DNA of 64,000 nt from Persicirhabdus sediminis (GTDB lineage: Bacteria > Verrucomicrobiota > Verrucomicrobiia > Verrucomicrobiales > Akkermansiaceae): assembly GCF_016595495.1 (NCBI RefSeq), contig NZ_JAENIM010000039.1, positions 354,659-418,658 of the forward strand. Reading direction: 5' to 3'. The stretch's first letter is position 1, and each line of letters starts with the position of its first letter. The notes beneath the pieces were generated by a model. It was given only the letters and a program-made list of their open reading frames with translations, did not search any database and was not told the origin of the DNA. Positions 1,650 to 4,620 of the stretch are shown piece by piece. Position numbers and translations under genes: made by a program.

Positions 1650-2042
1650 ATGAATTTATATGGCATCGGCATCGACGTAGTAGAGGTGGCTCGCATCGAA
1701 TCCTCACTGCAAGAATTCGGATCTCGCTTCCGTGAGAAGGTTTTTACCGCGGCTGAACGAGAATATTGCGAAAAACAGAAGCGTCCTGCGATTCATTTTG
1801 CCGCCAGATTTGCAGCCAAGGAGGCAATCGCCAAAGCATTTGGCACTGGCATCGGAAAAAATCTTGGCCTGCTCGATATTGAGATTTTGCGCAAGCCATC
1901 AGGCGAGCCAACCGTAGTTCTCAGCGGCGCTGGTCAGCAATTTGCTGAAAATCAGAACATTACCGAAATCAAAATTAGCCTGACTCACGCGGATCATTAC
2001 GCGGCGGCTAATGCAGTTGTTTTGGCCGCAGAAAAAAATTAA
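1650..2042 (+). CDS. acpS: Holo-[acyl-carrier-protein] synthase AcpS
   Basis: Transfers 4'-phosphopantetheine from CoA to the serine of acyl carrier protein, activating fatty-acid synthesis. From the ATG at 1650 the product is 130 aa. It begins M-N-L-Y-G-I-G-I-D-V-V-E-V, matching the family's N-terminal metal-binding Asp (D9). The second signature, F-A-A-R-F-A-A-K-E-A, is near residues 51-60. An upstream in-frame ATG at 1626 lies inside pdxJ and would add eight unconserved residues, so it is not preferred. The gene sits 16 bp after pdxJ and is likely in the same transcript. Confidence 0.95.
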   Translation: MNLYGIGIDVVEVARIESSLQEFGSRFREKVFTAAEREYCEKQKRPAIHFAARFAAKEAIAKAFGTGIGKNLGLLDIEILRKPSGEPTVVLSGAGQQFAENQNITEIKISLTHADHYAAANAVVLAAEKN

Positions 2043-2130
2043 GATTTCTTGTAGTTTCTTCTTGCCCGCAGAGAAAATTCAGGTATTTATTCGCCGCGCA
2101 GCCGCAAGGCAGCAGACAAAGTTTTCAAAT

Positions 2131-2205
2131 TCCGGCATAGCTCAGCGGTAGAGCGGGTGACTGTTAATCACTAGGTCCTTGGTTCGAATCCAAGTGCCGG
2201 AGCCA
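2131..2205 (+). tRNA. tRNA-Asn(GUU), copy 1
   Basis: Cloverleaf readable by eye: acceptor TCCGGCA/TGCCGGA, anticodon loop CTGTTAA with anticodon GTT, T-arm GGTTCGAATCC, discriminator G2202, and encoded CCA at 2203-2205. Identical to the second copy 28 bp downstream. Confidence 0.97.
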
Positions 2206-2233
2206 TTTGAAAATCGAGTTAAACATGAGTAAT

Positions 2234-2308
2234 TCCGGCATAGCTCAGCGGTAGAGCGGGTGACTGTTAATCACTAGGTCCTTGGTTCGAATCCAAGTGC
2301 CGGAGCCA
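2234..2308 (+). tRNA. tRNA-Asn(GUU), copy 2
   Basis: Base-for-base copy of the preceding tRNA-Asn, with encoded CCA at 2306-2308. The two are separated by 28 bp and share one downstream terminator, so they are probably a single transcript. Confidence 0.97.
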
Positions 2309-2321
2309 CTCGAAAATGAAA

Positions 2322-2346
2322 GGTACCCAATCGGGTGCCTTTTTTT
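2322..2346 (+). terminator. Terminator of the tRNA-Asn pair
   Basis: A 7-bp stem (GGTACCC with GGGTGCC, one G-U pair), loop AATC, then seven T residues. Confidence 0.85.
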
Positions 2347-2376
2347 GTGCCCGGGTGTTTCAGGCATTTCCTGCTT

Positions 2377-2765
2377 GCAGGTGGCAGGTGGCAGGTGGCA
2401 GGTGGCAGGTGGCAGCTAGCAGGTGGCAGGTGGCAGGTGGCAGGTGGCAGGTGGCAGGTGGCAGGTGGCTGGTGGCTGGTGGCTGGTGGCAGCTGGCAGG
2501 TGGCTGGTGGCTGGTGGCTGGTGGCTGGTGGCTGGTGGCTGGGCATGGGCATGGGCATGGGTGATGGGTGATGGGTGATGGGTGATGGTGTTTGTTGTAT
2601 TGGCGAACTGGTGAACTGGTGAACTGGTGAACTGGTGAACTGGCTGAACTGGCTGAGCTGGCTGAGCTGGCGAACTGGCGAACTGGCGAACTGGCTGAAC
2701 TGGCTGAACTGGCTGAACTGGCGAACTGGGTAGCTGGGTAGCTGGGTAGCTGGGTAGCTGGGTAG
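2377..2765. repeat. Mosaic microsatellite with shifting period
   Basis: About 390 bp of back-to-back short tandem repeats whose unit changes stepwise. Heptamers GGCAGGT then GGCTGGT run to about 2540; hexamers GGGCAT fill about 2541-2558; heptamers GGGTGAT about 2559-2586. After a short interruption come octamers GGTGAACT (about 2602-2640), nonamers GGCTGAACT and GGCTGAGCT, octamers GGCGAACT, nonamers again, and octamers GGGTAGCT (about 2728-2765). Most units share a CTGG or GGT core. Open frames cross the heptamer part on both strands because seven is not a multiple of three, but none looks like a real gene. Confidence 0.9.
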
Positions 2766-2820
2766 TAAATTTCCCGTGACTAGGTGAGGATGAGCGAGAC
2801 TGGGGTGAATCCGCAGCTAG

Positions 2821-4620
2821 AGCTAGAAAATGCCGAAGGCATACAATAGCCTAGCCTAGGGTAAGGCAGCGCCGAAGGCGCAACGCAACCCTAGGTGAGC
2901 GCCCCCCCCCAAAAACCACAGAAGGGCTGAAAGCCCCAAAGAACAAAGCCCATGGCTTCAGCCATGGGATAGTGGTCATTGACGACCGCGCCCTGAAAGG
3001 GGGCTAGAAATCGCCGGTGTCCAGCCCGCTAAAGTAAGCGGGATAGATATGGCGATGTCTAGCCGGCTTCAGCTAGAAAATGCCGAAGGCATACAACAGC
3101 CTAGCCTAGGGTAAGACAGCGCCGAAGGTGCAACGTAACCCTAGGTGAGCGCCCCCAAACTCCAGAAGGGCTGAAAGCCCGACACAGTTTGATAGGCTAC
3201 GTGTAGCCAGTTCGCTAGATATTTGATTGAATGCGATGCTCCAGCCAGAAAATGCCGAAGGCATACAGCAGCCTAGCCTAGGGTAAGAAAGCATCAAAAG
3301 TGCAACGCAACCCTAGGTTGCATGCCCAAAACCACAGCAGGGCTGAAAGCCCCAAAGAACAAAGCCCATGGCTTCAGCCATGGGATAGTGGTCATTGACG
3401 ACCGCGCCCTGAAAGGGAGCTAGAAATCGCCGATCTCCAGCCCGCTATGGAGAGCGAGTTAGATATGGCGATGTAGGGCCCGCTAGAGAAAGCGGAGAAG
3501 GGATCTCCGCAGTCCGAAAGCCTGCGGCTGAACTGCCGAGCTGGCTGGAGATATTCAGCGGTAGGTGTGTCTGTGCCCGCAGTTCCAGCTAGAATACGAG
3601 GAAGCCATATTGCCTAGCGATCCGGCCTCAGCTGGAATATGGGAGAGTCATATTAGCTAGCGATCAAGCTTCAGCCAGAAAATGCCGAAGGCATGGAACA
3701 GCCTAGCCTAGGGTAAGACAGCGCCGCAGGAGCAACGCAACCCTAGGTGAGCGCCCCCAAAACCACAGAAGGGCTGAAAGCCCGACACAGTTTGATAGGC
3801 TACGTGTAGCCAGTTCGCTAGATATTTGATTGAATGCGATGCACCGGCTAGAAAATGCCGAAGGCATACAACAGCCTAGCCTAGGGTAAGACAGCACCGA
3901 AGGCGCAACGCAACCCTAGGTGAAGCATGCTCAAAACCACAGAAGGGCTGAAAGCCCGACACAGTTTGATAGGCTACGTGTAGCCAGTTCGCTAGATATT
4001 TTGATTGAATGCGATGCACTGGCTAGAAAATGCCGAAGGCATACAACAGCCTAGCCTAGGGTAAGACAGCGCCGAAGGTGCAACGCGACCCTAGGTTGCA
4101 TGCCCAGAATCACAGAAGGGCTGAAAGCCCCAAAGAACAAAGCCCATGGCTTCAGCCATGGGGTGGGTGGGATGGATGACCGCGCCCTGAAAGGGAGCTA
4201 GAAATTGCCGCTGTCCAGCCCGCTATGGAGAGCGAGTTAGATATGGCGATGTAGGGCCCGCTAGAGAAAGCGGAGAAGGATCTCCGCAGTCCGAAAGCCT
4301 GCGGCTGAACTGCCGAGCTGGCTGTTGATATTCAGCTGGAGGTGTGTCTATGTCCGCAGTTCCAACTGGAATATGAGGAATCCATATTGGCTAGCGATCA
4401 AGCTTCAGCTGGAATATGGGAGAGTCATATTAGCTAGCTAGCCAGCTAGAGCTGGAAAATGCCGAAGGCATGCAACAGCCTAGCCTAGGGTAAGGCAGCG
4501 CCGCAGGTGCAACGCAACCCTAGGTGAGCGCCCCCAAAACCACAGAAGGGCTGAAAGCCCGACACAGACCGCGGCGCTCAAAAGAGTCATCGAGTCATGT
4601 TAGCTAGCTAGACCTTCACA
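2821..4620. repeat. Array of seven hairpin-rich repeat modules
   Basis: Seven copies of one module start at about 2821, 3071, 3243, 3673, 3846, 4021 and 4450. Each opens with GAAAATGCCGAAGGCAT. It continues with CCTAGGGT and ACCCTAGG as perfectly complementary arms about 35 bases apart, and then GGGCTGAAAGCCC. Several hairpins have GAA triloops (ATGCC-GAA-GGCAT, GGGCT-GAA-AGCCC, CGCC-GAA-GGCG). Two kinds of tail follow. The short tail gives 172-175 bp spacing (copies 2, 4, 5). The long tail contains CCCATGGCT-TC-AGCCATGGG and gives 429-430 bp (copies 3 and 6) or a shortened 250 bp (copy 1). Copy 7 is truncated. The architecture resembles REP/BIME clusters. No transposase is present nearby. 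Small open frames inside are repeat by-products. Confidence 0.9.

Follow-up and report, generated by a model that had tools for sequence, protein, structure and literature searches.

A G-rich intergenic satellite of related blocks with changing unit length in Persicirhabdus sediminis

Long simple sequence repeats with units of 5 to 11 nt, among which heptamers are the commonest, have been described in bacteria by Mrazek et al. (2007, as reported in PMC4679880 and PMC4692102). According to the same two reports, it has been suggested that the preference for 7 bases is tied to the length of DNA contacting the polymerase, and beyond this suggestion the reason why bacterial satellites prefer such units is left there unexplained. 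In particular, TAACTGA arrays of Beggiatoaceae, cyanobacteria and Bacteroidetes (MacGregor 2015, PMC4679880) are intergenic heptamers whose unit is common to distant lineages and which sometimes mix with other heptamers in larger assemblages. The GGGNATC and GGGGA(C/T)T heptamers of Xanthomonas and Nostoc (Rehm et al. 2015, PMC4692102) are G-rich, non-coding, quadruplex-type repeats and are presented as a genome-wide class preferring four units. Bacterial compound microsatellites, finally, consist of adjoining arrays of differing units (PMC9024877). In other words, heptamer satellites, their spread across distant lineages, their mixed assemblages and slippage as their cause are, as these accounts present them, already published (PMC4679880, PMC4692102).

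The 389-bp tract discussed here lies at positions 2377-2765 of the window, that is, of the whole 64 kb stretch of DNA that was analysed. It belongs to the heptamer class of long simple sequence repeats, while being longer and more varied, and it is marked by its changing unit length. Namely, it consists of tandem runs of short units beyond chance expectation in a non-coding location, and its unit is 7 at 2377-2540 and 2559-2586, with units of 6, 8 and 9 elsewhere. It resembles the repeats of Mrazek et al., as reported, in its short tandem chromosomal units, the dominance of heptamers and the slippage proposed for them, but differs in that the unit length switches among 6, 7, 8 and 9 within one tract. 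Like the TAACTGA arrays it is intergenic, whereas its units are others and it follows tRNA genes, those arrays often lying just upstream of start codons (PMC4679880). With the repeats of Rehm et al. it shares G-richness and non-coding location, its GGGTGAT block is near GGGNATC in sequence (PMC4692102), and at least four G3 runs in tandem units are found at 2541-2582 and again at 2728-2762. That said, the likeness concerns one block in one tract and not a genome-wide class: a systematic 800 kb sample of the same genome (40 pieces of 20 kb each, or 19% of the whole), which holds two quadruplex motifs, has 10 arrays with three or more copies, and a GGGNATC-type unit occurs in not one of them. 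Compound microsatellites, as described, are dominated by units of 1-3 nt and are mostly coding (PMC9024877), in contrast to the non-coding units of 6-9 nt seen here. No tract with a succession of units of 6-9 was found in the open-licence literature searched, to the extent of its accessible text.

That the tract exists, at these coordinates and with every unit named in an earlier, sequence-only reading, was verified by inspection of the sequence, unit cutting and Tandem Repeats Finder (Table 1). It falls into two repeat fields, A (2377-2588) and B (2602-2765), with 13-15 irregular bases between them. Tandem Repeats Finder reports period 7 at 2377-2539 (score 249) and 2557-2588, and period 8 at 2601-2729 (score 181) and 2726-2765, while autocorrelation peaks at 7 and its multiples in field A and at 8 and 51 in field B. 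Field A is composed of (GGCAGGT)n, (GGCTGGT)n, (GGGCAT)3 and (GGGTGAT)4, with a unit length of 7, briefly 6, and then 7. Field B is composed of GGCGAACT, (GGTGAACT)4, interleaved 9-mers and 8-mers and (GGGTAGCT)n, with unit lengths of 8 and 9 interleaved, and then 8. The sequence-only reading had described a series of 7, 6, 7, 8, 9 and 8; all of these lengths are present, but the series omits both the interruption and the interleaving, the order over the whole tract being 7, 6, 7, 15 irregular bases (GGTGTTTGTTGTATT, 2587-2601), 8, 9, 8, 9, 8. The irregular bases are perhaps decayed units. Earlier units also return, as with GGCAGCT and GGCAGGT inside the GGCTGGT block (2488-2501), and a 35-bp segment of the 9/8 pattern at 2642-2676 has a second copy 51 bp further on (2693-2727) that matches it at 33 of 35 bases.

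Table 1. Features of the repeat tract and its surroundings (window coordinates, except in the last line)
Feature	Position	Strand	Basis
Two identical tRNA-Asn(GTT) genes, 2131-2205 and 2234-2308, upstream of the tract	2131-2308	+	ARAGORN, Rfam
Intrinsic terminator (hairpin and T run) after the tRNA genes	2318-2346	+	sequence, RNA fold
(GGCAGGT)n block; variant pair GGCAGCT-AGCAGGT at 2411-2424	2377-2466	+	sequence, unit cutting
(GGCTGGT)n block, broken by GGCAGCT-GGCAGGT at 2488-2501	2467-2540	+	unit cutting
(GGGCAT)3 block, unit 6	2541-2558	+	unit cutting
(GGGTGAT)4 block, unit 7; with the preceding block, a canonical G-quadruplex motif at 2541-2582	2559-2586	+	
15 irregular bases between the fields; the first two also prolong the GGGTGAT run	2587-2601	+	unit cutting
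GGCGAACT, then (GGTGAACT)4, unit 8	2602-2641	+	unit cutting
Interleaved 9-mers (GGCTGAACT, GGCTGAGCT) and 8-mers (GGCGAACT)	2642-2727	+	unit cutting
(GGGTAGCT)n block, unit 8; second G-quadruplex motif at 2728-2762	2728-2765	+	unit cutting
Acido-Lenti-1 (RF01687) hairpin array, downstream neighbour, outside the tract	2829-4524	-	Rfam, five hits over cut-off
(AAAACTG)n places within 1 kb of RF01687, own genome	C42:48105, C45:54085, C45:57110, C47:193345		

As the sequence-only reading had it, the tract begins approximately 30 bp past the terminator of the tandem tRNA-Asn genes and ends just before the hairpin array, in agreement with the sequence, RNA folding and Rfam. The terminator hairpin (about 2318-2343) has an RNA fold of -16.7 kcal/mol (z -4.8), and the terminator is missing from the list returned by a consensus terminator scan. 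The tRNA pair itself forms a 103-bp direct repeat (2128-2317, 97% matches, ARAGORN and Tandem Repeats Finder). Downstream, the first ORF of 120 aa or more comes after 2.5 kb, and the tract is non-coding. A coding repeat was rejected, since all three plus frames contain stops and the overlapping mechanical ORFs of 80 aa or more (82 and 94 aa) extend over only the first half of the tract; two of the three minus frames are open across it. Arrays of this kind are not produced by random sequence: when the 800 kb sample was resampled once under an order-2 Markov model, 18 arrays reached 2.6 copies or more; each had a unit of 5, and units of 6-12 were absent.

How could such a tract have come about? 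In all likelihood it is a long simple sequence repeat whose mutated units were amplified by slippage again and again. Chained in order, its nine units add up to a cyclic edit distance of 16, as compared with 29.0 (sd 3.2) when the units are random but equal in composition and 32.2 when they are drawn from the window, with none of 3000 chains as low as 16 in either case. The order of the blocks, on the other hand, is only weakly non-random (16 versus a mean of 20.6 for random orders of the same units, p = 0.041), 3 edits are needed at three of the eight steps, and a strict neighbour-to-neighbour series is not proven. Consequently, of the proposal that each block arose by slippage from a mutated unit of its neighbour, the stepwise derivation is supported by the relatedness of the units, while the strict order is weak. 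According to the mechanism we propose, a short G-rich word would first have been duplicated and then lengthened by replication slippage or unequal recombination; a unit would have been changed by substitution or a one-base indel, and the altered unit amplified in turn, giving successive blocks, some of a new unit length. Longer duplications would now and then copy several units at once, and a self-folding G-rich strand with two G-quadruplex motifs would promote slipping. The slippage of mutated units, together with such longer duplications, would explain the block structure, the relatedness of the units and the 35-bp recurrence. In a toy slippage model with parameters of our choosing (7-mers favoured, G-biased substitutions), 6 or more units together with 3 or more unit lengths were attained in 37 of 200 runs, the medians being 5 units and 2 unit lengths versus the 8 and 4 observed. 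With a terminated tRNA unit on one side and an island of hairpin repeats on the other, the tract is probably tolerated rather than selected.

Kindred arrays are present in the same genome. The 800 kb sample contains 10 exact arrays of at least three copies with units of 5-15, namely 8 heptamers, one 14-mer and one 13-mer. Across the whole genome, (AAAACTG)3 has 51 matches, which we grouped into 9 separate places, and by eye both orientations relative to GC skew occur. A second stepwise mosaic, at C9:8865-9167, runs through (ACACCTG)8.6, (AACTGAC)8.6, (AAAACTG)n and (AACTGAC)4.9, with an edit distance of 1 for both steps measured, and two-unit mosaics are found at loci L237 and L239; similar mosaics elsewhere in the genome, which the sequence-only reading had considered worth seeking, thus do exist.

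The hairpin family next to the tract, Acido-Lenti-1, is tabulated for Acidobacteria and Lentisphaerae by Weinberg et al. (2010, PMC2864571), at least in that table. In this genome it has at least 89 matches at E <= 0.001, with 150 of 1112 candidates scored. At least four of the nine (AAAACTG)n places have a match no more than 1 kb away, as compared with 4.1% of sampled intergenic bases (binomial 3e-4); among the RF01687 matches listed, the other five have none on their contig or none closer than 7 kb. The association is one of co-occurrence and no more. Around RF01687 hits at loci L261 (C15:5500-16500), L260, L257 and L258 there are also arrays with 14-, 16- and 19-base units, and the 16-mers of L260 and of part of L261 are composed of CCAGCCAGCC-like words. 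As a separate observation, the palindrome CCAGCTGG is found 359 times in the 800 kb sample (L212-L251) versus 11.8 expected from base composition, an excess of about 30-fold, with 260 copies coding and 99 non-coding, and twice in 93.7 kb of relatives' loci. It contains CAGCTG, which we take to be the PvuII site, and N6_N4_Mtase (PF01555) was not found in the genome. The palindrome is reminiscent of HIP1 (GCGATCGC), the highly iterated palindromes of cyanobacteria (PMC4390886).

Are such tracts peculiar to this organism? Within its order, (AAAACTG)3 is present in 20 of 141 genomes and 12 of 39 genera, its reversed control in 2 of 141. Three copies of the 8-mer word GGYGAACT occur in one of the 141 genomes, solely the organism's own, and also in two viral contigs, as read around the match. 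As for GGCWGGT in three copies, it is no commoner than its reverse (8 versus 7 of 141 genomes by our table count), and a motif-specific G-rich heptamer of the order is accordingly not supported. A scan of 84,980 species for four copies of GGCWGGT gave at least 119 stretches in many phyla, and the comparison that follows is restricted to loci selected for these arrays, among the matches listed. In these 119 listed loci, 43 of the 124 chains with the seed motif hold at least two units, and 11 of the 124 have at least two unit lengths, 6 of the 11 combining 7 with 14; non-seed arrays of at least three copies are heptamers in 94 of 122 cases. After within-locus duplicates were dropped, 33 unique adjacent pairs remained of 51. 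Adjacent different units in the listed loci are a mean cyclic edit distance of 1.67 apart, as opposed to 2.71 (sd 0.11) after letter shuffling (0 of 500 as low), 28 of the 33 pairs being 1-2 edits apart and 2 of the 33 changing unit length. In the own genome and its relatives in the order, 25 adjacent pairs have distances from 1 to 4. Contrary to the earlier supposition that such mosaics are rare in bacteria, block mosaics thus appear, from the listed loci of many phyla, not to be rare, while a change of unit length between blocks appears unusual. The neighbourhood of acpS offers no empty orthologous site for comparison. Namely, acpS is matched in 33 of 38 genomes searched, the own genome included and none of the 38 being of the same genus; of the 19 loci scanned for tRNAs, 2 have tRNA-Asn beside acpS, and in both relatives it is on the other side and the opposite strand.

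The foremost alternative is that the tract has a structural or regulatory role. No canonical G3 quadruplex motif is found in the window apart from the two in the tract, and in the 800 kb sample there are two in all, neither within an array; moreover, GGGTGAT resembles the published GGGNATC unit (as given in PMC4692102). The predicted structure is confined to one strand: the DNA fold of the plus strand is -64.5 kcal/mol (z -6.9 against shuffles), that of the minus strand -13.3 (z +3.6), both computed without a quadruplex option. GC skew is 0.60 in field A and 0.38 in field B, versus 0.05 in each 500-bp flank. On strand asymmetry, which also speaks for slippage, and on replication orientation, both raised by the sequence-only reading, the outcome is as follows: only the G-rich strand is structured, and, since the GC skew of the contig, positive in all 14 stretches sampled as far as 620 kb, turns negative in the 3 beyond, that strand is probably leading-sense at the tract. 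Against a role, the tract has mostly GG runs, quadruplex motifs arise as a by-product of G-rich repeats, and AAAACTG, the commonest array unit in the genome sample, is without G runs. What is more, a scan found no promoter-like site within 2040-3100, and the tRNA terminator lies upstream. On balance, we consider such a role improbable.

Could the tract instead be a binding-site or recombination array, for instance of tandem Chi sites? The (GGCTGGT)n block contains eight overlapping copies of GCTGGTGG, the octamer of E. coli Chi (starts 2468-2531), and the genome has a gene for a RecC-type protein (Exonuc_V_gamma match at C12:40558, E 1.9e-77). In 38 stretches, however, GCTGGTGG occurs 89 times on the leading and 38 times on the lagging strand, as compared with 97 and 25 for GTGGCTGG and 89 and 19 for TGGCGGTG. 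The mean over 168 words of the same composition is 18.1 and 6.6, and the strand ratio of GCTGGTGG is below that mean. Despite the presence of RecC, the octamer is not special on the leading strand relative to such words, and we give this explanation very little credence. An assembly artefact is, in our view, equally far-fetched: while such arrays do break assemblies, as in a relative (G141) in which contigs C24 and C36 both terminate in (GGCTGGT)n, the present tract is deep within a 775 kb contig, comparable arrays exist at other places in the same genome, and the longest exact repeat within the tract is 44 bases, every 45-mer being unique within it, so that ordinary short reads could place it and short-read misassembly is unlikely.

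Slippage of mutated units in a heptamer-class satellite is, consequently, the reading that we prefer, and, the question of register aside, the tract is an ordinary, though well-developed, non-coding satellite. That said, it may record how bacterial satellites shift unit length, with a 7-base slip register drifting to 6, 8 and 9, a speculation that we regard as rather unlikely. The further suggestion that the drift would take place on a leading-sense, self-folding G-rich strand, in repeat-rich stretches between genes where Acido-Lenti-1 hairpin arrays also gather, is put forward just as tentatively. If this were true, the preference of bacterial satellites for 7 bases would become testable, and related blocks of changing unit length, lying amid many pure heptamer arrays, would be a handy place to probe the register.
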